Of a DNA stretch of 64,000 bases, positions 4,986-46,690 are shown piece after piece. Made by a program: the position numbers and the translations under genes. The DNA comes from Sacculina carcini (taxonomy: Eukaryota > Arthropoda > Thecostraca > Sacculinidae), in NCBI GenBank assembly GCA_916048095.2, contig OU696596.1, positions 5,583,195 through 5,647,194 of the forward strand, read 5' to 3'. The first letter of the stretch is position 1, and every line of letters starts with the position of its first letter. The notes under the pieces are model-generated. The model made no database searches. It worked only from the letters and a program-made list of their open reading frames with translations, and was not told the DNA's origin.

Positions 4986-5742
4986 TGTCACAAAGTGTTG
5001 AACTCTTCTACTAGTACGCATTTACTTGAACAGGAATTAACACGTGATTTTCAGGGCGTGATATAGCGCCATTTTCCAACGTTTGACATTTATAAGACAG
5101 TGAGCACAGGCTGCTACATATGCTTGTAGTGTTTAGGCTCACACTAAAATGCAAGCTGTAGTACGTTCTATTTGATAACAAGTTTCATTGAAAGAATATA
5201 AAGAACATTATTGCGACCATTACTAAAAATAATTACATTAGCAAGTAGTGTATTTTGCATTTGTATTAGCTTTCCACTTTAAATTGCATTTTGATGGTTA
5301 TGCTCCTTCTTGCGATGTTAGCCGAATAATATTAAGAGAATTTTGGTGGTTTGTTGTAAAAATGGTACCAGATCGGAGAGAGGATAGAAAAATAGTACCA
5401 ACTCGGAAAGAGGATAGAAAAGAAGGACTGGTGTATTTTCTTCCTTCAGAACTGCAAACAGAAGTTGACCTTTTTTGAAGGTTATTTTTACGAAGGTTAG
5501 GTTATTTTAGGTTACTTTTTATAGGTTATTAGGTTACTTTTTATGTTCACAAACAAACAACAAACAAACCGTGTATTTGATATAGCGCACTAATCAGCAA
5601 AGGCGTGATAAACATGTGATAAAGCGATGCAAAAGTAATAATAACATTACAACTCATAGGTTATTTTAGGTTTCTTTTTTAGGTTACTTTTTCTCGAAAA
5701 TAAAGTTACTTTTTTCTGGTTTTTAGGTTACTTTTTTGACAG
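4986..5742. other. Non-coding DNA with AGGTTA repeats and a LINE 3' end
   Basis: No convincing gene. A 30-bp tandem duplication lies in the frame at 5368-5425. From 5478 to 5742 the sequence repeats AGGTTA(C/T)TTTT. At about 5555-5600 (CAAACAACAAACAAACCGTG then TATTTGATATAGCGCAC) it resembles, on the minus strand, the extreme 3' end of the CR1/L2-type LINE at 42133, so a short LINE tail is probably embedded here. Confidence 0.5.
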
Positions 5743-6600
5743 CCCTAGTCATAACCAATTCCAAACAGTTTCCCGCTTGGTGTGTGGAACCGGACACCAT
5801 TTGAAAGCAACCAGAAATGTTGCAGAAATCATATGCTGCTCTACCATGAGCGTCTGTAGGAGATGTCGACAAGAGCCACTCACGGTGATGGGCGTTCATG
5901 TCTCCCACAAATACAAATGCTGACTTGGTATCCTTCTCCTGAATTGTTGACATGGCTGACAAGAGACATTCGTAGATAGAGTCGTTACTGTCTGGATTTC
6001 GGTAGGCTCCAAAGATGTAAAAATTCATCAAGGTGGTGTTGACACGCAGCAGCATAACTTCATGACAAGTGCAGTCGTGCGCTGTAATTCTCGTAGCTGA
6101 AAAACCTTTGCGTACGTGCACTGCCATGCCACGCCGCCTGTTTTTTGAGTCACGTTTGATTAGCAATGGCTTACTGAAACCTGGCATCAAGAGCTCAGAT
6201 TGGTCCCGATAATCGGACACAAGCGTTTCGGCACAGATAACGATGTCCTTGGAGCGACTGGCTGCTGTCAAATCTCTGATGTTCTTATACAAGCCTCTGA
6301 TGTTGGCGAAGAGGATATTTGAAAATAGTTTTTGTGGTCGAGCAGGACCGGGATTCATTTCGACATCGCCACACATCATCAGCAGAAATGATAAGTCCAC
6401 GGTGTGAGAAGGCACACACACAACGCAAAGCAAACATACAAATAAACACATAATGCATGACGCAAGCGAGCACAAAAACACAACACATAACACATGCATA
6501 CGAAATGTCACAGCAAAAAACAAGCATACAACACACACAATACAAAGCAAACATACACACAAATACACACACAACAAGAAAAACACTAGAAAACACATGT
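5743..6600 (-). pseudogene. Ingi/I-like LINE 5' fragment: hydrophobic leader, 2A, endonuclease
   Basis: Read on the minus strand, a Cys/Val/Leu-rich hydrophobic leader (about 6600-6375) is followed by CGDVEMNPGP and then an apurinic-type endonuclease. Visible endonuclease blocks are ILFANIRGLYKN, the DIVICAETLV motif with the catalytic Glu, FGAYRNP, FVGDMNAHHREW with the catalytic Asp/Asn pair, and a DAHGRAAYDF...NCLELVMT block typical of Ingi/I-group LINEs. The endonuclease stops abruptly at 5743, where the frame runs into an AGGTTACTTTTTT repeat, so the SDH motif, RT and RNase H are lost. The open frame continues upstream through (TG)n and cannot mark the true start; a Met near 6600 is the best candidate. 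The RT/RNase H fragment at 7.4-9.4 kb could be from the same family but is a separate copy, because it lies upstream in the minus direction. Confidence 0.75.
6344..6373 (-). other. 2A ribosome-skipping peptide
   Basis: The codons read CGDVEMNPGP, an exact fit to the 2A consensus D-(V/I)-E-x-N-P-G-P. Known 2A peptides stop the Gly-Pro bond forming while translation continues. Here the final Pro would be residue 1 of the endonuclease protein, separating it from the hydrophobic leader. 2A motifs are known in several LINE clades (trypanosome Ingi/L1Tc, and sea urchin elements). Confidence 0.85.
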
Positions 6601-6869
6601 GAGAACAATTTATTGAGAGCTCATTGTTAAACACATATCGCAAAGCGAAATGTCCAATGGGCGACAACAAAGACAGAGTATGAGAGCAACACAGATTTAG
6701 TTGGCACCTCAGTGCGAGGAAAGAGCTGGGCGCTGACGGAAAACGGGAAAACCAAGAAAGAAAGTTGAAGAAGAAAGAAAGAAAGAAAGACAAGAAAATT
6801 TCCAACGTGATGGTATAAATTGTTGGCGGGTACAAAATGATAAAAAATGGACCAAGGAGGGTGGGACAA

Positions 6870-6901
6870 AAACACAGACACACACACACACACACAGAGG
6901 A

Positions 6902-6953
<52 letters not shown>

Positions 6954-6958
6954 CTAGC
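6870..6958. repeat. (AC)n plus (TA)n in the fixed junction of the modular repeat
   Basis: The order is GGACCAAGGAGGGTGGGAC, (AC)n, AGAGGATCT, (AT)n, ACTAGCATTAAACCCGCCC. The same flanks recur at 9.5, 18.2, 18.5, 19.95 and 23.9 kb, so the microsatellite is part of the repeat family and not a random expansion. Confidence 0.85.
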
Positions 6959-7400
6959 ATTAAACCCGCCCGTTGTGCGGAGCAATTCATAACATGAAAT
7001 TCATATTATATTCATAAAAAAATTCAAATTAAAAAAGATTATAGTAAAACCATATAAATTCTAATCTAATGAAAATTCTAAATTTCATTTTTCATGTTTA
7101 TTTGGACAAAATATTATCTCTCAAACCGCGTCATAATCAAACCCGCCCGTCGTGCGGAATAATCCAGAAATCGAACGCGATCCGTTCTGGATCTTGATGT
7201 CAAATCGATTAGTTTTGTGTATGAACTCGTTTTACACGGTGAAATTGAACGTTGTACTGTCTTTAGTTACTGCCCGCGGGGAATTTTTATTTCATAAACA
7301 TGATCCATCTCTTCGTTTACGTTTGAAGCCCCTGATATAGACTATTGAGCCCGCGCAATTATGTCACCTCGTTCGTTATTTGTGTTTATGGGGTGCACCG
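6959..7400 (+). repeat. Modular repeat family, A-B unit plus distal segment
   Basis: It starts TAGCATTAAACCCGCCCGTT (A motif, followed by CAATTCATA). The B motif is at ~7140 (CCCGCCCGTCGTGCGGAATAA, followed by TCCAGAA). A segment with CTGCCCGCGGGGAATTTTTA and TTGCGCGGG-type sequence comes next, and it ends against the 3' end of the neighbouring LINE near 7400. Confidence 0.8.
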
Positions 7401-9440: not shown

Positions 9441-9555
9441 AATTTGTGATCATTCATATTCCTTTTCTCTTATGAATTGAATACAAATTTAATAGTATGA
9501 ATTGTTCCGCACAACGGGCGGGTTATAATGCTAGTCTATATATATAAAAGAGATC

Positions 9556-9592
<37 letters not shown>
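9441..9592 (-). repeat. Modular repeat junction, reversed, with (TG)n
   Basis: On the minus strand this reads (CA)n, AGAGGATCTCTTTTATATATATAG, ACTAGCATTATAACCCGCCCG (A motif), then TTCATACTATTAAATTTG. The plus-oriented LINE ORF1 frame at 9562 emerges directly from the (TG)n tract. Confidence 0.85.
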
Positions 9593-9593
<1 letters not shown>

Positions 9594-10305
9594 GTCTGAC
9601 GAATCCCCTGTCGATTCCAAGCGAGTCTCTGAGGCTCTCAAAACTGTACCGGTGCTGAGAGTGTCCACCACCAAAAAAGGCGCTGTCAAGGTGGAACTCC
9701 CCGACAGCAAGACCGTTGGCCACGCCCTGAAGGCTATGAAAGATGTTTACCACCTCAAGACGTCTTGTCCTGGAAAAATTCTGCCGAAGCTGACAATAAC
9801 ATCTGTCAGCTCCGATATTGCCGACAAGAACATCGTCGAGTTTTTAACCAGGAAGAACAGCGAAGTCAGAGCCGCCATCAAGCGTGCCTCGGACATCAAA
9901 GTGCTGTTCTCCAAAAAATCGTCGGAGCACACAAAAACTGTTGTCGTGGCTGTGTCTCCTGTCATCCGTGACATTGTCATCAAGTCCGGATTTGTCTATT
10001 TGGGTGACCAAAGGTGCCTGGTGTATGACCGCTTTTGGGTCACTCGGTGTGTCAAATGCCAGCGTCATGGTCACATGGACAACAAATGTCGAGCCCAAGA
10101 GGCCACTTGTGGGTGGTGTGCTGGAAAACACACCACCAAGTTGTGCTCGAGGAAGAATGCCCGCAAGTGCATCAACTGTGTACGTGCGGGTCGTGACAAC
10201 GTCTGCCATGCAGCGTTTGATTCTGCATGCCCCTGCTTTCTGTCATCGAGAACCCGCGTGATCAACCGGACTCAGACCGTCGAGGATCTCAATTCGGGAA
10301 ACTAG
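9592..10305 (+). CDS. LINE ORF1 protein, 5'-truncated, three zinc knuckles
   Basis: This is the nucleic-acid-binding partner of a LINE reverse transcriptase. The frame enters from the (TG)n tract, so the true start is lost; coherent protein starts around VSDESPVDSKRV. A central region (VKVELPDS, LPKLTITSVSSD) is the RRM/ESO-like portion usual in CR1/L2 ORF1. The tail begins CLVYDRFWVTRCVKCQ and holds three knuckles: CVKCQRHGHMDNKC, CGWCAGKHTTKLC and CINCVRAG...C. The same wording (VYDRFWVTRC) occurs in ORF1 of the LINE at 45.4-46.5 kb, so the two are sister families. It ends at TAG 10303-10305, immediately after GGGAAAC. Confidence 0.8.
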
Positions 10306-13300
10306 ACTGGACCACCGGCCTGACTGATTGTGTTCAACATTCTAACTCTGAATTGGACGCTGATTCTTCAGTACTGCTTCCTTCAACCAGCTCATCATCC
10401 GCTGATAAGTGTCCTTATTCTATCTCTGATTCGTTTTCTATTATTTCTTGTTCTAAGTCTAACAATGAAATTGGTCTATTGAAATGTGCTTTCTTGAATT
10501 TTAGGTCTATTAGGTCTAAAATATCACTTTTTACGTCCATTCTTCCTAAGTATGATATTTTTCTGGTCATTGAATCGTGGCTCTCTGTTGCTGAAACATC
10601 TTCCTTTGGTCGCTCTCTTCCTGCTGGCTACTCAGCTTTTCATTATTGTCGCCCTTTGAACGTCTCTAATTCTACTAAATGCTCTGGTGGTGGTGTTTCT
10701 TTTGTATTCAATTCGAACATTATTAATGCCTATCTATGTAGTGTAGATATCACTTTTAAGTCATTTGAACATTTATGTTGTAAGGTTATAGGTAAAACTA
10801 CTCTTCCTGTATGTATTGTCATCATTTATCGTCTTAATTATTTTTCCTCCTCGATTTTTCTTGATGAGTTTTCTTCTCTTGTTGACGCACTTCTTCCAAT
10901 TTTTTCTTCTAGAATATTAATTTGTGGTGACTTCAATCTTTGGGTTGATGCGCCTCATCTTAAGTCTTGTTCTTCTACATTTTTACAATTAATTGACTCA
11001 TTTGGTCTTTGTAATCATATCTGCTGCCCTACTCATGTTCACGGCCACACACTTGATCTCCTCCTTTCTTTTACTGATTCTTCTGTTCTGATTAAAGATA
11101 TCACTGTTTTCCCTATTGATTCCTCCATATCTGATCATTCATTAATTGAATTTTCTGCCCGCCTGCCTATCACTTGCAAATCTCCTAGAACTATCAGTTT
11201 CTCGGATTATCGAAATGCTGACTTAGATTCTCTTTATATCAATATGCACTTGTGTTTTGCTATTGAATATTTCGTTCATATACCGCCTGCTTCTCTCTTA
11301 GGGTATTTCAACACATCCCTTGATTCTCTTAAGTCCACCTTTATTCCTGTTAAAGTCTTCCGTTCATCTAATACTCGCTGTCCTTGGTTTAACTCTGATA
11401 TTAAAAACTCTAAAATCTCCCTTCGTCGTCTTGAGCGTCAATGGCGCCGTCTCAAGACTGACTCTTCTTGGCAAACTTTCTGTTCTGCTCGTCGGCATCA
11501 TCACCTTCTCTGTGATTCCGCCAAAAAATCTTACTATAATTCTAAAATCTCTTCCTGTCTCAATTCTAAGAAACTTTGGAAGCTTTTTGACAGTCTCTTA
11601 GGTAATTCCCGTAGTCTCATCCTTCCTGATTTGGCATCTAACCAATTACCTTCTTTATTTATGAAATTTTTTCAATCCAAAATTGATAAGATTCGTTGCT
11701 TGTTCCCTTCTGTTCTACCATTATCCTCTCCGTGCTCAACCTCATCTGTTTTTAACTCTTTTGCTTTAGTAACCATCTCTGACTGTAGAGCTATTTTAAG
11801 GCATGTTAAAATTCATTCTTCATCTCTCGACCCCATTGATCTTTCCAGGATTCCTCACTCTATTGAGCTGCTTCTTCCTTTCTTAACAAACTTCATCAAT
11901 GCTTCTTTCACTCATGGGCAATTTCTGGCATGTAAAACTGCCAGTATTCTCCCTATACTTAAGAAATCTGATCTGGATGCTAACACGCTTTCTAACTATA
12001 GACCTATCTCTAGAATTCCTTGGCTGTCCAAAGTTCTTGAAATGGCTGCCTACATACAGATATCTGAATATCTTGAATCTAACAATTTGTTTCTTCCTGA
12101 GCAGTTTGGTTTCCGTCACTTTCACTCTACTGAAACTTCTCTATTTTTTCTCTATGATTCTATTATCAAATCAACTCTCTCTGGTTATGATGTTCTACTT
12201 ATACAACTAGACTTCTCTGCTGCATTTGACACTGTTAATCATCTGCTTCTTATTGATACCTTGTTAGACTTAGGCATCAGCGACACAGCTCTCTCTTTCT
12301 TTCGCTCTTATCTTTCTGATAGACTTCAGTTTGTTTCTACCTCTGCTGATTCCTGTAGTGAGGCTTGCCCACTAACTTGTGGTGTACCTCAAGGCTCTGT
12401 CTTAGGTCCTCTCCTCTTCAATATGTATCTTACCTCTGTAGGGAAAGTTCTTCGTCGTCACGATGTGTCCTTCCAAATATTCGCTGACGACATTCAAATC
12501 CTTCTCTCGTCTGAGTCTATTTCTCACTCTTCAGTAAGTTCTATTATATCTGATATAGAAAGATGGGCGTTCACTCGTCATCTCAAACTTAATCCTGATA
12601 AGACTAAGTATATTCTCTTTCCATCTTCTAATGGTACTACTTCTCTTAGTATACCTCTATCCTGCTCTGTACGTAGTCTTGGTATCATTCTCGATAGCTC
12701 TCTTTCTTTTGATTCACACATCTCTGACATTATCAGGTGCTGTAACTATCAACTTAGGCGTATCTATTCCATTCGTAGATATATAACTACCTCTGCTGCC
12801 TTTAAGTTAGCTAATTCATTCATCTTTAGTAAAACTCAGTATTGCTGTTCTCTTCTACTATCGCTCAACCACCGCCAGCTTAGGAAACTTCAATCTATTA
12901 TTAATAAGGCCTGTCGTATGATATTTAATCTTCCTTCGGGCTCTCATGTCTCTTCTTCTCTACAAAAACTTAAGTTACTTCCCATTAAGGCTTTCGTTGA
13001 GTATCGTATTTGTTTAATTATTCATTCAGCTCTTCATCTTTGTAAGCCTGCGTATCTGTTTGACCTCCTCTCTTATAAAACCTCATCTCTTTCTCTTAGG
13101 TCTTCTAACGATCCTTTTCTACTAGTTGAACCTTCCTTTCCTTCTAGGCATTCTCACTACAATCGTTGTTTCTCTATCTTAGGACCTCGTATCTACAATA
13201 GGCTATCTCCCTCAATACGCTCAATCAAATCTCTAACTCTTTTCAAAAAACATACTAAAAATTTCTTTCTCACTAAGTCTTACTACTGTCTTAATAATAT

Positions 13301-13331
13301 TGTATATATTAGTACTGAATATAAGGTCTGA
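10227..13331 (+). CDS. LINE ORF2: endonuclease and reverse transcriptase
   Basis: This protein nicks target DNA and primes reverse transcription. Counting from the ATG at 10227, the endonuclease starts near residue 86 with CAFLNFRSIRSK. The catalytic Glu is in LVIESWLS (116), then VIIYRLNY, GDFNLW (235-239) and SDH (302-304). RT has NYRPIS (~590), LDFSAAFDTV, GVPQGSVLGPLLFNMYL (~718) and FADDIQIL (752-755). A C-terminal thumb and the tail KKHTKNFF close the protein. There is no RNase H, as expected for CR1/L2. It overlaps ORF1 by 79 nt in the -1 frame. Because residues 1-85 are low-complexity and a slip site sits at the ORF1 stop, expression as an ORF1-ORF2 fusion is likelier than initiation at 10227. 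No nonsense codon is visible. Confidence 0.85.
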   Translation: MPLLSVIENPRDQPDSDRRGSQFGKLDWTTGLTDCVQHSNSELDADSSVLLPSTSSSSADKCPYSISDSFSIISCSKSNNEIGLLKCAFLNFRSIRSKISLFTSILPKYDIFLVIESWLSVAETSSFGRSLPAGYSAFHYCRPLNVSNSTKCSGGGVSFVFNSNIINAYLCSVDITFKSFEHLCCKVIGKTTLPVCIVIIYRLNYFSSSIFLDEFSSLVDALLPIFSSRILICGDFNLWVDAPHLKSCSSTFLQLIDSFGLCNHICCPTHVHGHTLDLLLSFTDSSVLIKDITVFPIDSSISDHSLIEFSARLPITCKSPRTISFSDYRNADLDSLYINMHLCFAIEYFVHIPPASLLGYFNTSLDSLKSTFIPVKVFRSSNTRCPWFNSDIKNSKISLRRLERQWRRLKTDSSWQTFCSARRHHHLLCDSAKKSYYNSKISSCLNSKKLWKLFDSLLGNSRSLILPDLASNQLPSLFMKFFQSKIDKIRCLFPSVLPLSSPCSTSSVFNSFALVTISDCRAILRHVKIHSSSLDPIDLSRIPHSIELLLPFLTNFINASFTHGQFLACKTASILPILKKSDLDANTLSNYRPISRIPWLSKVLEMAAYIQISEYLESNNLFLPEQFGFRHFHSTETSLFFLYDSIIKSTLSGYDVLLIQLDFSAAFDTVNHLLLIDTLLDLGISDTALSFFRSYLSDRLQFVSTSADSCSEACPLTCGVPQGSVLGPLLFNMYLTSVGKVLRRHDVSFQIFADDIQILLSSESISHSSVSSIISDIERWAFTRHLKLNPDKTKYILFPSSNGTTSLSIPLSCSVRSLGIILDSSLSFDSHISDIIRCCNYQLRRIYSIRRYITTSAAFKLANSFIFSKTQYCCSLLLSLNHRQLRKLQSIINKACRMIFNLPSGSHVSSSLQKLKLLPIKAFVEYRICLIIHSALHLCKPAYLFDLLSYKTSSLSLRSSNDPFLLVEPSFPSRHSHYNRCFSILGPRIYNRLSPSIRSIKSLTLFKKHTKNFFLTKSYYCLNNIVYISTEYKV
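10296..10302 (+). promoter_or_regulatory. -1 frameshift heptamer GGGAAAC at the ORF1 stop
   Basis: In the ORF1 frame the codons are TCG GGA AAC TAG, so G GGA AAC has the exact X XXY YYZ phase. Slipping back one base gives GGG AAA CTA GAC TGG, which is the ORF2 frame. A possible hairpin follows within 2-5 nt (CTGG-ACCA-CCGG, extendable with one mismatch). GGGAAAC is a known retroviral -1 site (simian retrovirus gag-pro). Confidence 0.7.
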
Positions 13332-13655
13332 TTGTTTCCTAATTCTGTCTTCTTTGTGTATGTGCTTCATGCGTGTGTTTTCCGTTCTTGTGTATGTATG
13401 TTTCTCTATTGTATGCTCTCTGTGTGTTGTTGTGTTGAGCTCTGTTATCTGTGTTTGTGTGTCTGTTGAGTTGTGTTCTCTGTCTATGTGTTTCAGTGTA
13501 TGTCATTGTATGTCTGTTATGTTGTGTTTTCTGGTTTGTATTTGTGTGTCTATTGTGTTGTGATCTGTCAATCTGAGTGTATGTCGTTGTATGCCTGCTG
13601 TGTTGTATTTTGTGTTGTATCCTGTTCTCTATGTCTGCTGTGCTATCTTATTCAA
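13332..13655 (+). other. LINE 3' UTR, T/G-rich
   Basis: About 320 bp of TGTGT/GTTG-rich sequence with no coding signal runs from the ORF2 stop to the repeat boundary TCAATACTAGCATTAAAACC. Confidence 0.65.
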
Positions 13656-14580
13656 TACTAGCATTAAAACCCGCCCGTTGTGCGGAAGAATTAATAAAAA
13701 TATTGCAAATTAAAAATAAATAAGGCAAACTCATAAAAACCTTAATCAATTAAAAAGTCTAAATTTCATTATTTTTAATTTACATTTTGACAAAATATTT
13801 TCACTCAGCCCGCCTCATATTTAAACCCGGCCGACGTGCGGAATAGTTCAGAACTCGAACACCATCCGTTCTGGTTCTTGAAGTCAAATCCATTAGTTTT
13901 GTATATGAATTCATTCTACACGGTGAAATTGAACGTTTTATGGCTGCCCGCGGGACATTTTTATTTCATAAAAATGAGCCATCGCTTCGTTTGCGTTTGA
14001 AGCCCCTGATCATTGAACCAGCGAACCATGAACCAGTGCAATTATGTCACCTCATATTCAAGCATACATACACAGACAGACAGATAATTTCTTCTTTATG
14101 TATATATATAGCATTAAAACCGCATTAAAACCCGCCCGTTGTGCGGAACAATTCATAAAAATATTGCAAATTAAAAATAAATAAGGCAAACTCATGAAGA
14201 CCTTAATCAATTAAAAAGTCTAAATTTCATTATTTTTAATTTTATTTTGACAAAATATTTTCACTCAACCCGCCTCATATTTAAACCCGCCCGACGTGAG
14301 GAAAAATTCAAAACTCGAACACCATCCGTTCTGGTTCTTGAAGTCAAATCCATTAGTTTTGTATATGAATTCATTCTATACGGTGAAATTGAACGTTTTA
14401 TTGCTGCCCGCGGGACATTTTTATTTCATAAAAATGAGCCATCGCTTCGTTTGCGTTTGAAGGCCCTGATAATTGAACCAGCGAACCATGAGCCAGCGCA
14501 ATTATGTCACCTCATATTCAAGCATACATACACAGACAGACAGATAATTTCTTCTTTATGTATATATATAGCATTAAAAC
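13656..14580 (+). repeat. Two tandem ~450-bp units of the modular repeat
   Basis: Each unit contains the A motif (13669, 14130), the B motif (13826 as CCCGGCCGACGTGCGG, 14284), a CTGCCCGCGGGACATTTTTA box, a TTTGCGTTTGAAG stretch, CAGACAGACAGATAATTTC and TATATATATAGCATTAAAAC. A shared short duplication at the join (GCATTAAAACCGCATTAAAA) is also present in the copy at 33.05 kb. The 121-codon open frame (14247-14612) lies within the second unit. Confidence 0.85.
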
Positions 14581-42459: not shown

Positions 42460-45411
42460 TTATAGTGATGCAAAAGGTGTGAGAGTGTGGGAGACTGGGT
42501 CAAAAGAGAGGTCAAAAAAGTGTTTGGAGAGCTTAGAGCGGAAAGAATTGTAGGAAAGAGAAGAAGTAATGTGAACTGGGATGGAATTGTAAAGGCGAGG
42601 GGCGGAAAAAAAGAATGATTTGGAGGACCAAGGAGATTCATTTACAGCACGAGGGCATACAAGGGGAAGAGGAATTCGGGAAGGAGTGAGGCAAGGAGTG
42701 AGGAGAAGGCGGAGATAGGATGGCTGATGAGGATCGTGGAGAAGCTTATATATCAGACAGCACAGGCGAAAGTGAATACGTGGAATAATAGGGAGCCAGC
42801 GAAATTGAAAAAGAAATCGAGAAGTGTGACGACAAGGAACAGGATGAAGGACAAAACGACAAGATTGATTAATGACGCGTTGTAGGATTTTAAGAGAACG
42901 ACGAGGAGCATGGATGTACAAAGAATTACAATAGTCAAGTCTAGAGAATACATGAGAGTGAATAAGTTTGATTGCGGAAGGTCTGTCGAGATATGAGCGT
43001 ATAGGATAGAGGGATCTCAAGATAAGACGACAAGTGCGGGCGACAGAGAGGATGTTGTCGGAGGAAGAGAGAGATGAGTCAAAAATAACTCCGAGATTGC
43101 GAACTGTCGATGATAGGATAAGAGGTAAGCGAGGAGGAAGAATACGAGGAGGATGAAGAGCCAGAAACTCAGACTTGGACGGGTTGAGGAGGAGGTGACG
43201 GGACGACGCCCAAGAAGAGATGGTGGATAGGATGTCAGAGAGAAAAGACGGAGAAGGAAAAGGAAGAGGGATATATAACTGAATGTCATCAGCGTAGATA
43301 TGAAATGAGATGGAATACTTACGAAGGATAGGACAGAGGGAGGACATGTAAAGGTTAAAGAGTATCGGACCAAGAATAGATCCCTGAGGGACACCTGATG
43401 AAAGATGGATAGGATCAGATACAGAGGAATTGAAGTTGACAGAGTAGGTCCTTCCCGAAAGGTACGATTTAAGGAGAGAGAGGGCAGAAGACGAGATACC
43501 AAGATGAGAGAAGTCATGAATTAGGATAGAGTGATTAACAAGGTCGAAGGCGGAGGACATATCGAGAAGAACGAGAAGAACAGAGCGACGGTACGAGAAG
43601 TGCGAGAGGATGCCATTGGAGATAGAAAGAAGAACTGATTCGGTAGAATGAGAAGGGCGAAACCCGGATTGGAAGGGATCAAGAGACTGGCAGATGAAAG
43701 GGGAAAGTTGCGCAGAGATAGCGGACTCGAGAAGTTTAGAAGCAAAGCTCAGAAGAGATATAGGACGATAGTTACTAAGTATAGAAGAGTCAAGGTTCTG
43801 TTTCTTAAGAATTGGACGGACAATTGCATGTTTGTCAGCGAGAAACTGGCCGTGAAGAAAAGAGGAGTTGATAAGATGCAGGAGATAAGGAACCAGGGAA
43901 GGAAGGGATTTGGATATAGCAGGGAAGTTGATTGGATCAGCTGGTGAGAAGGATAGCTTGGAAGAGGAAACGAGGGAAAGGATATCATGAAGATCAATGT
44001 GAGAGAAGGACGTGAACCGGTGATGAGTGGAAGTGTGAGTGAGGGCAGCACAATTGGTGGGAATACTCGATTGTGTGAGTTTTACTTTTTCAGAGAAAAA
44101 TGTTGAGAACTCGGGAGCCGTTAAAGGAGAGGAAAAAGCAGGAGAGTTAAGACCGCAGAGAGAGTTCAGAGTGGACCACAATGACTTGGAGGAACGAGAA
44201 AGGGACGAGAGTTTGGAGCTATAGTAGCTACTTTTAGCAGCAGAAAGAGCAGAAGTGAAAGATGAGCGAGCGGAGCAAAACAAAAGCCAATCGGAAGAAG
44301 ATCGTGAACGCCTCCAAGTACGCTCAAGACGTCGTTGAAGAGACTTGAGTACTCGAAGCTGAGGAGATGACCAAGGAGGAGAGCGAGAGGAAGATGAGCG
44401 AGTGATGATTGGGAACATACAATTATTTATATGGGAGAGTGCGGAAGATAAATATGGATAGATGTCATGGGGAGGAAGATAATACAGAGCAGAGATAGGG
44501 AGACAGGAGGATAATAGTGAGTGAAATTGAATGGAATTAAAACATTTGTAGTTACGATAGCTGGACGGAGTATGAGAAGGGGGACAAGTGAGCGGCAGAG
44601 TAGATAAAAGTAGGCTGTGGTCAGAGACGGAGGAATCAGGAGGAAATACAAAGATATCGGAAGGGACAGGATCAGTCGAGAGAAATGGGGAGGGAAACAG
44701 GATTAGATCAAGTGTATGGCCAGATATGTGTGTAGGAGAGAGAGAAGAATAAGAGAGACCATGGGAAGTAAGTAATGAGATAAAATTCAAGCAGTAAGGA
44801 TTGGCCGAGGGTGAATCAAGCCAGAAGTTAAAGTCGCCGAGTATGATAAAATGGCTGGAGAAAATAGACGAGACTGCTTCAATGAGAGGAGGAAACTCTT
44901 GAAAAAACATCGCGGAAGTGCCGGGGTGATTGGGACGGTAAATGATAAGGATGCAAAACTTGTTAAAAGAGGGGAGCGAGAGGGTGAGAGCTAGGAATTC
45001 GAATGAGGTGGGAGAAGAAACCAGATTGGAAAGGGACGAAATGGAGAGACCTTTGGAGAATAGACAACCTACCCCGCCACCCGAAGACTTAGAACTGTCG
45101 CGCGATTTGTGTAGGAATGAAGAACAGGAAGGTAAGTTAGCAGAGAATGAGGAAATATCAGAATCAAGGAGCCAGGTTTCGGCAAGACAGAGAATAGACA
45201 TATTATGTGAGGCAAAGAGGTGGGATATGTGAGTCGTTTTATTTCGAGCCGATCTGATGTTGAGAAATCCAATTGAAAGATACTTAGAGTTAAAATGTGG
45301 ACTAGGTTGAGGTGAGAGAAGTGAGGAACAGTAGAGGGAAGAGATGGAAGAGCGGCAGGGAAATTGCGCTGAAATAGAAAGAGGAAGGGAAGAATCGCTA
45401 GAAGGCGATAG
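42460..45411 (-). CDS. LINE ORF2: endonuclease and reverse transcriptase
   Basis: The frame opens directly after the ORF1 TGA. About 45 codons in, it reads SIGFLNIRSARNK, the first endonuclease block, then LCLAETWLLDSD (catalytic Glu), LIIYRPNHPG, ILGDFNFWLDS and VSDHSLLLSTLPL, completing the endonuclease. RT blocks are LSNYRPISLLSFASKLLE, LLDMSSAFDLVNH, SGVPQGSILGPILFNLYM and YADDIQLYI (catalytic Asp pair). APRLYNSIPVHI ends the protein. There is no RNase H, as in CR1/L2. It is ~983 codons from the TGA. The first ATG (45201) would omit the NIRS block, so ORF2 most likely arises by readthrough as an ORF1 fusion or from a non-AUG start. It looks coding-competent. Confidence 0.85.
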   Translation of the reverse strand, partial: LSPSSDSSLPLSISAQFPCRSSISSLYCSSLLSPQPSPHFNSKYLSIGFLNIRSARNKTTHISHLFASHNMSILCLAETWLLDSDISSFSANLPSCSSFLHKSRDSSKSSGGGVGCLFSKGLSISSLSNLVSSPTSFEFLALTLSLPSFNKFCILIIYRPNHPGTSAMFFQEFPPLIEAVSSIFSSHFIILGDFNFWLDSPSANPYCLNFISLLTSHGLSYSSLSPTHISGHTLDLILFPSPFLSTDPVPSDIFVFPPDSSVSDHSLLLSTLPLTCPPSHTPSSYRNYKCFNSIQFHSLLSSCLPISALYYLPPHDIYPYLSSALSHINNCMFPIITRSSSSRSPPWSSPQLRVLKSLQRRLERTWRRSRSSSDWLLFCSARSSFTSALSAAKSSYYSSKLSSLSRSSKSLWSTLNSLCGLNSPAFSSPLTAPEFSTFFSEKVKLTQSSIPTNCAALTHTSTHHRFTSFSHIDLHDILSLVSSSKLSFSPADPINFPAISKSLPSLVPYLLHLINSSFLHGQFLADKHAIVRPILKKQNLDSSILSNYRPISLLSFASKLLESAISAQLSPFICQSLDPFQSGFRPSHSTESVLLSISNGILSHFSYRRSVLLVLLDMSSAFDLVNHSILIHDFSHLGISSSALSLLKSYLSGRTYSVNFNSSVSDPIHLSSGVPQGSILGPILFNLYMSSLCPILRKYSISFHIYADDIQLYIPLPFPSPSFLSDILSTISSWASSRHLLLNPSKSEFLALHPPRILPPRLPLILSSTVRNLGVIFDSSLSSSDNILSVARTCRLILRSLYPIRSYLDRPSAIKLIHSHVFSRLDYCNSLYIHAPRRSLKILQRVINQSCRFVLHPVPCRHTSRFLFQFRWLPIIPRIHFRLCCLIYKLLHDPHQPSYLRLLLTPCLTPSRIPLPLVCPRAVNESPWSSKSFFFSAPRLYNSIPVHITSSLSYNSFRSKLSKHFFDLSFDPVSHTLTPFASL

Positions 45412-45414
45412 TCA
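45409..45414 (-). promoter_or_regulatory. UGA-CUA stop between in-frame ORF1 and ORF2
   Basis: The codons are ATG CTA AAT TGA CTA TCG. UGA followed by CUA is the best-documented readthrough context in eukaryotes and alphaviruses. The frame stays open from here to 42460, and the first ATG (45201) lies after the first endonuclease motif. Confidence 0.65.
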
Positions 45415-46545
45415 ATTTAGCATTGGCGAGGGATGACGAGGGATGACGGTCGGGGGTGAGGGGGTGGGAGCTAAGAGAGTGCGGGCACGGATAGAATTGC
45501 GGACAGCCAAGAAGGAAGAACACTGCGGAGAAAAAACAGAATGGTTAGAAGCGTGGCCGTGATTAGTACAGTTGACACATTTCAGTGTGCTGCGATCAGG
45601 ACAGGCGGAGGAGGGGTGGGGACCAGCACAATAGCCACAGACGGGTACTTTTGTGGGGCAACGCTCAAACTTGTGACCAAGTCCACAGCAGCAAGAGCAG
45701 CGAGTCACCCAAAACCTGTCATAAACGCGACAACAGCGTAGGTGGACGAAGAGGCGATCACCTCCCTCACGAATTTTTTGCCGAACTCCCGGTGAGACTC
45801 CCAGCACGGCATGAGAGCGACCTTGTTTAGGCGGAGTGATGAAGAATAACTTGAGGTCGGCTTCTGGGACATCAGTGAGAAAGCTGTTCTTGGCACGCAG
45901 GGAGGCCAGCAGACTATCAGGGGACGAGGGTGGCACATCCACGAGGGTGATTTTCGGCAGAATTGTTTGCTGCTTATTCAGCACTGCTACTTGCACTCCG
46001 TCGATGTTGTCGGCAAGCGACTTGGCTGCCTGGGCAGCGGCGTCTTCGGTGGAGCAGCGCAAAACAAAACCACCAGATGATGTAGGACGGGCCGTTTTCA
46101 CTTGTACCGTTTGCAGATGTTGTTGCAAGTTATCAGCTCGTACAGGCTCTTTACTTTTGTTTTTCACCACAAGAGCAATTGTACGGGCTGGCACGTTGTG
46201 GTGGGAAGCGGTATTTTCATCAGCGTTGGCAGAGGCGCAGCGAGAGGGGTGAAAGTCACGCAGATCATCAAGCAGTTCGGTTCGCAGCTTGGTGAAGCGG
46301 GACTCCATCACCGATGTCACTTTCTCGACAGTCAGTGGATTACGCTTGACTAGTACGAAGTCAGTTTTGCACAAAGCACAAACCCAAAACAGTTTATGCT
46401 TCTTGACAGCATTGTATGCCGGTGTAGAAAGCGCCGCGCATGAGGGGTGAAATACGGCGGAGCATCCTTCGCACACAATGTGCGCGACGGCGGAAACGGA
46501 CTCACCGCAACAACACAATCGATCAATGTCAGAACGGTTGGGCAT
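45412..46545 (-). CDS. LINE ORF1: PHD finger plus zinc knuckles
   Basis: This is the RNA-binding partner of the RT. I choose the ATG at 46543-46545 (MPNRSD); the open frame extends upstream without another ATG. Residues 11-59 form a PHD-like finger (CCCGE, CEGC, FHPSC, WVCALC). A middle region (VKTARPTSSGGFVLRCSTED, PKITLVDVPPS) resembles tandem RRM-like folds seen in CR1/L2 ORF1. The tail has VYDRFWVTRC, CSCCCGLGHKFERC, CGYCAGPHPSSAC and CVNCTNHG. ORF1 is 377 codons and ends TGA (45414-45412), in the same frame as ORF2 and followed by CTA. PHD-bearing ORF1 is known in CR1-group LINEs. Confidence 0.85.
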   Translation of the reverse strand: MPNRSDIDRLCCCGESVSAVAHIVCEGCSAVFHPSCAALSTPAYNAVKKHKLFWVCALCKTDFVLVKRNPLTVEKVTSVMESRFTKLRTELLDDLRDFHPSRCASANADENTASHHNVPARTIALVVKNKSKEPVRADNLQQHLQTVQVKTARPTSSGGFVLRCSTEDAAAQAAKSLADNIDGVQVAVLNKQQTILPKITLVDVPPSSPDSLLASLRAKNSFLTDVPEADLKLFFITPPKQGRSHAVLGVSPGVRQKIREGGDRLFVHLRCCRVYDRFWVTRCSCCCGLGHKFERCPTKVPVCGYCAGPHPSSACPDRSTLKCVNCTNHGHASNHSVFSPQCSSFLAVRNSIRARTLLAPTPSPPTVIPRHPSPMLN

Positions 46546-46690
46546 TGCGGTCACAACACTCGCGCACAGAAAAAGACAGAGCAAATAAGGAAGACACGGA
46601 GCTCACAGAAACAGCACCACTCGCGACGGCTACTCGACGACGACTGAAAGTAAAAAGTAAAAAGAAAGTAGAAAGTAAAAAGTAAAATAG

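Follow-up and report, generated by a model that had tools for sequence, protein, structure and literature searches.

In retroviruses and LTR retrotransposons gag-pol −1 frameshifting takes place at heptamers of the form X_XXY_YYZ, G_GGA_AAC and A_AAA_AAC among them, and readthrough of UGA-CUA stop codons is known in viruses and in some cellular genes. According to the available part of one review, non-LTR elements, unlike LTR elements, use termination-reinitiation (PMC5902531), and this mechanism has been reported for example for SART1 and L1 (PMC5972666 and PMC5902531, in the parts available), which are two-ORF LINEs with ORF2 after ORF1, as is the element described here. A third route to two proteins in related LINEs, 2A/StopGo, is known from trypanosomes and sea urchin (PMC5972666, same part) and is also represented in the DNA described here. 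Frameshifting within a non-LTR element has been reported for Gag expression in HeT-A of Drosophila (PMC5009743, available part), where it serves Gag and there is no reverse transcriptase, whereas in the LINE described here the shift would give an endonuclease-reverse transcriptase. Type IC ORF1 proteins (PHD, RRM, three CCHC) have been tabulated for CR1 and L2 subgroups, the available part of that study not describing how the ORF1/ORF2 junction is decoded (PMC4120745). Expression of a LINE ORF2 by frameshifting or readthrough was not reported in the titles and abstract beginnings among the matches listed from the open-licence PMC literature, to which the literature search extended, and a prior mention of LINE ORF2 recoding is possible.

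The window analysed here is a stretch of 64,000 nt of the Sacculina carcini genome. It carries a LINE (family A, Table 1) that is by its architecture a CR1/L2-like non-LTR retrotransposon. Its ORF2 encodes an AP-type endonuclease and a reverse transcriptase (both recognized by Pfam), as in LINEs of the CR1/L2 lineage, and zinc-knuckle-like cysteine motifs were seen by eye close to the ORF1 C-terminus; PHD-like and zinc-knuckle-like cysteines may relate ORF1 to the type IC of CR1/L2 elements (by eye, with a weak Pfam PHD match in the second family treated below, B), while Pfam returned no match for the ORF1 frame in the window or for the 409-aa family-A ORF1. The preliminary description had placed a GGGAAAC slip site exactly on the ORF1 stop with ORF2 as the target frame, and both points hold. 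The ORF1 frame ends AAT TCG GGA AAC TAG, with the heptamer in ORF1 phase and the stop directly after it, and the −1 frame reads GGG AAA CTA GAC, is open over the whole interval given in Table 1 and contains both enzymatic domains (ORF2 has 1034 codons counted from the ATG in the overlap). The element had also been called nearly intact, which it is not: no start lies close to the 5′ end of ORF1, which breaks off at a (GT)n run. A GCATTAAAACCCGCCCGTTGTGCGGAA-like repeat pair in opposite orientations (9452–9598 and 13655–13800, by eye) brackets the LINE, and both of its flanks recur many times within the window.

Table 1. Positions of the features of the two LINEs discussed (window coordinates)
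Feature	Position	Strand	Remarks
Truncated ORF1 frame, family A	9535..10305	+	5′ part of the copy missing; frame ends TCG GGA AAC TAG
(GT)14 run	9560..9587	+	5′ truncation point of the family-A copy; 5′ junction
ORF2 frame, −1 relative to ORF1	10221..13331	+	fusion from 10296 onward in the favoured model
ORF2-frame ATG inside the overlap	10227..10229	+	occurs in 4/39 family-A places
Putative −1 slip heptamer G_GGA_AAC	10296..10302	+	in ORF1 phase, UAG adjoining
ORF1 stop UAG	10303..10305	+	read in ORF1 frame
Endonuclease (Exo_endo_phos)	10521..11138	+	Pfam, ORF2 residues 101–306
Reverse transcriptase (RVT_1)	11961..12641	+	Pfam, ORF2 residues 581–807
Family-B ORF2, in the frame of ORF1	42460..45411	−	first Met = residue 71
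UGA between in-frame ORF1 and ORF2, family B, then CUA	45412..45414	−	frames read
Family-B ORF1	45412..46602	−	396 codons stop to stop, 377 from first Met

The arrangement resembles gag-pol in the form of the heptamer, in the −1 direction and in that the site lies at the end of a gag-like ORF and ahead of the frame bearing the reverse transcriptase. It is unlike gag-pol in that the element is a non-LTR one with an AP-type endonuclease, in that Pfam finds neither protease nor integrase in the family-A LINE of the window, and in that hairpin folds detected no stimulator. From the sequence comparisons that follow we think it very probable that programmed −1 ribosomal frameshifting produces the family-A endonuclease-reverse transcriptase, as a minor product in which ORF1 and ORF2 are fused. 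The majority of ribosomes would decode GGA AAC and halt at the UAG, giving the ORF1 protein, and a minority would shift back by one base at G_GGA_AAC, pair anew with GGG AAA, bypass the stop and read on in ORF2, so that a low rate of slippage at the heptamer would yield a fusion of ORF1, endonuclease and reverse transcriptase; the slippage, its rate and the fusion as the working form of the enzyme are all inferred, and the stop adjoining the site may aid a pause.

Copies of family A were sought in the whole genome (264 Mb in 43 contigs). In a DNA search the best 40 of 330 first-look candidates were scored (94–100% identical), and 23 distinct copies were read from 38 loci, L056 being left out; in six of the 23 ORF1 has 417 codons between stops (409 when counted from its first Met). 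A pattern in which the seven bases of the heptamer were left free found GGGAAAC in 48 of 49 family-A places (GGGAGAC in the other), and with up to three mismatches allowed elsewhere it was present in 53 of 56 (the others being GGGTAAC, GGGAGAC and GGGAAAT). Taken within family A alone this conservation is weak evidence because the copies are young and some of them are segmental duplicates. The preliminary description had named loss of the heptamer with retention of the ATG at 10227 as a pattern that would count against its reading, and the opposite was found: the ATG occurs in just four of 39 places (CTG in 35), and it was accordingly rejected as the ORF2 start of the family. No other Met in the ORF2 frame of the overlap was found among the distinct copies with a complete overlap. 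Twenty of the 23 distinct copies (from loci L001–L008 and L039–L068) have a GT run of at least eight units in the stretch of up to 1.6 kb that precedes the site, and in several copies such a run is the truncation point, which suggests that family-A copies may insert into GT microsatellites.

More distant relatives were collected in two ways. A degenerate pattern for an ORF1 motif (at most one mismatch) gave 403 places, including A, B and C, and the C-terminal 90 residues of the family-D ORF1, used as a protein query, gave 1787 candidates, of which the best 150 were scored; from these, nine loci and 39 junction windows were picked by eye so as to cover diverse copies. Adding A, A′, C and D to the 39 windows makes 43 sequences, which at 75% identity across 150 nt fall into 13 clusters. 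A, A′ and C form one cluster, and two others are single degraded copies (L120 and L124). Twelve families were counted: A, C, D, D2–D9 and L129 (D5, that is L115, and L129 are single copies, and L129 is degraded). In all ten families beyond A and C, ORF2 lies in the −1 frame and a slip site stands in ORF1 phase. The site is A_AAA_AAC in D and D2–D8, A_AAA_AAG (a weaker site in eukaryotes) in D9 and G_GGA_AAC in L129 as in A; two D copies (L091 and L098) carry an additional U_UUA_AAA just before A_AAA_AAC. Families A and D have different versions of the site, and the pieces of their proteins that were aligned are just 35% identical. An in-phase slip heptamer and the frame offset, whose conservation the preliminary description expected among copies of the family, recur in these diverged relatives. 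The placing of the stop exactly on the slip site in that description is true of the window copy and is not a rule, the ORF1 stop lying 0 to 33 codons after the site across families.

The −1 overlap is open to the window end in 29 of the 39 junction windows, which carry A_AAA_AAC (24) or A_AAA_AAG (three) in phase, or neither (L104 and L117). The ten set aside from this count are L100, L103, L107, L112, L119, L120, L124, L129, L132 and L135; indels put the ORF2-like frame in +1 in L100, L103, L112, L119 and L135 and in 0 in L107. A count of canonical heptamers (those not ending in G) in all 39 windows gives 34 in ORF1 phase and six and four in the other two phases, and for sequence of this composition the chance per in-phase site is about 1 in 189, although the window counts are not independent because the families share ancestry and copies recur. 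In eight of the 12 families (D, D2, D3, D4, D5, D6, D8 and L129) the −1 frame closes one to five codons upstream of the site, and therefore ORF2 opens at that spot alone; it closes 25 codons upstream in A and is open to the window edge (17–18 codons) in D7 and D9.

The positions of substitutions give a second view of the junction. Four pairs were compared (A with A′, two of A with C, and A′ with C, given in this order throughout) over the 82 nt of the overlap. Substitutions in it fall at ORF1 third positions in 5/9, 13/22, 14/23 and 9/18 cases and at ORF2 third positions in 2, 4, 4 and 3, while in the endonuclease they fall at ORF2 third positions in 11/21, 28/47, 22/39 and 36/54. For A (L050) against C (L076) the 22 overlap substitutions are distributed 5, 4 and 13 over the three ORF1 positions and 13, 5 and 4 over those of ORF2, and in the endonuclease the ORF2 positions have 13, 6 and 28; the remaining three pairs point the same way. 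Between the site and the endonuclease, the linker of 180 nt has little bias (9, 15 and 15 by codon position) and is therefore under weak constraint. Since changes in the overlap follow the third positions of ORF1 and not those of ORF2, nothing indicates that the ORF2 frame upstream of the site is translated, as would fit a change of frame at the site.

These observations bear directly on termination-reinitiation, in which the ribosome would halt at the ORF1 UAG and begin anew on ORF2, using either the ATG of the overlap or a codon other than AUG, and which we regard as very unlikely here. It has the precedent of the non-LTR elements cited at the outset, the window copy does carry its ATG, and an AUG lies between site and endonuclease in the ORF2 of D4, D6 and D8 (also in the single copies L099 of D and L097, C-like), with D7 having one in the overlap (three of seven windows have it in the −1 frame, some 18 codons ahead of the site, and the other four begin just after that point). 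Against this stand the rarity of the ATG within family A, the constraint on the overlap, which is that of ORF1 and not of ORF2, the absence of an ORF2-frame AUG between site and endonuclease in nine of the 12 families (reference copies), and the phased slip heptamers, which reinitiation leaves unexplained. Compared with SART1 and L1 the family-A junction has neither a UAAUG (this stop-start is absent at the junction in the window) nor a conserved ORF2 AUG.

Even less likely, in our judgement, is slippage of a polymerase, in which RNA polymerase or reverse transcriptase would stutter on the A-run and transcripts with an indel would join the two frames for ribosomes that never shift. Six consecutive A do occur in eight families, and an altered A-run is indicated by the frames or context of L100, L103, L112, L119, L124 and L135; set against this, the run in family A is merely G3A3, two junctions from other records (L163 and L139, below) have T6 and G3T4, and canonical heptamers favour the ORF1 phase by the phase counts, in which run length is not separated. 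A separate ORF2 message, made by splicing, an internal promoter or an IRES with the heptamer incidental, is the least probable of the three, as it would lead one to expect neither that slip sites recur in phase at the junctions of so many families nor that the −1 frame closes just upstream of them in eight of the 12.

For programmed frameshifting the sister family C is the awkward case. It is abundant, with long open frames, and about 82% identical to A across the junction; its −1 frame is open for 211 nt in most copies. Its site is the non-canonical G_GAA_AAC in 55 of 56 places (one base left free; the other is GGTAAAC), and a canonical slip site was thus rejected for this family. The near-identical copies L086–L088 have GGAAGAC at the site, and in copy L069 the 240 nt upstream are free of canonical heptamers in phase. 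G_GA-type sites are listed for some viruses (PMC5009743, available part). Either G_GAA_AAC works as a slip site or family C uses another way.

The preliminary description had also seen a possible hairpin after the site and expected downstream pairing to be conserved, and hairpin folding gave neither of these points support. At the window junction the 45 nt starting 5 nt past the site have a folding energy of −4.9 kcal/mol, where shuffled sequences average −5.7 (z +0.46), and a 90-nt fold has z −0.77; a hairpin stimulator at this junction is not supported. Among 14 junctions folded with RNAfold, 13 have no hairpin beyond shuffles, and D8 is the exception (45 nt, z −2.8).

A second LINE in the window (family B, 42460–46602 on the minus strand) has two long ORFs in one frame, split by a single UGA that CUA follows. 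A PHD match in its ORF1 is weak (E 0.0014, below the Pfam cut-off). The best 40 of 75 candidates from a family-B search were scored and 30 loci read: TGA C is kept in 29 and lost in L027, and the first ORF2 Met is residue 71, inside the endonuclease, in 28 of 29 (residue 168 in L035). The same in-frame layout occurs in E (UGA CUU), F (UGA CAA, two copies), G (UGA CUA) and H (UGA CUA AUG, two copies), with other stops in L089, L090 and L094. H and F (an AUG about nine codons after the UGA in L093) are weak cases for readthrough because an AUG follows soon after the stop and could allow reinitiation. The combination of UGA C with an in-frame downstream ORF, as in the known UGA-CUA readthrough systems and here in LINEs, suggests that family B and its relatives may express ORF2 by readthrough of the UGA. 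UGA as a sense codon was rejected for the window copies, since the ORF2 of A and both ORFs of B have no in-frame TGA (Trp is TGG, Cys is TGC or TGT). Ten elements were placed in an unrooted tree, in which A, A′, C and D stand apart from B, E, F, G and H (local support 0.977); D2–D9 and L129 are outside the tree, their kinship resting on ORF1 similarity to D.

LINE relatives also turned up in other records. Prokaryote genome contigs scanned with the ORF2 alignment gave 35 loci (L137–L171), apparently eukaryotic contamination in bacterial and archaeal records to judge from their content, and the junctions of 15 of them were examined. In L142, L143, L155, L158 and L160, five contigs that are probably sponge DNA because they come from Poribacteria bins, ORF1 and ORF2 share a frame across a UGA, CU follows this stop, and the endonuclease begins within about a dozen residues, a layout that suggests readthrough here too. 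L163, from an archaeal bin, has a GDSL-esterase ORF1, U_UUU_UUA at 480–486, one codon before the stop, and ORF2 in −1, and in L139 G_GGU_UUU precedes the ORF1 stop by 20 codons, within a −1 overlap of 27 codons, a weak case because an AUG follows the site. NPGP (2A-like) precedes the endonuclease in L138, L141, L145, L147, L148, L157 and L161, and L137 has no clear junction. In the window a 2A/StopGo-like GDVEMNPGP lies just before the endonuclease of a third LINE (6344–6370, minus strand, in the ORF 5723–7000), and NPGP is absent from the A and B frames of the window and from the junction windows. A protein search gave 77 relatives without DNA, of which 12 entered an alignment; a pattern scan of viral contigs gave 21 stretches with no relative among them, and a PDB sequence search gave 13 reverse transcriptase chains, including L1 ORF2p, and nothing bearing on the junction.

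Taken more broadly, we lean towards the view that a broad CR1/L2-like group of LINEs makes its endonuclease-reverse transcriptase as a Gag-Pol-like fusion by ribosomal recoding rather than by reinitiation, with a −1 branch and a UGA-C branch and a switch of mode between them, the sister group appearing to reach the same end by UGA readthrough. If this is right, control of the ratio of structural to enzymatic protein in the manner of retroviruses would exist in LINEs too, and LINE recoding would span many families of one genome in two alternative modes, which would offer a natural system for studying the evolution of recoding signals. The way in which LINEs produce ORF2 protein would then also become testable with short reporter constructs.
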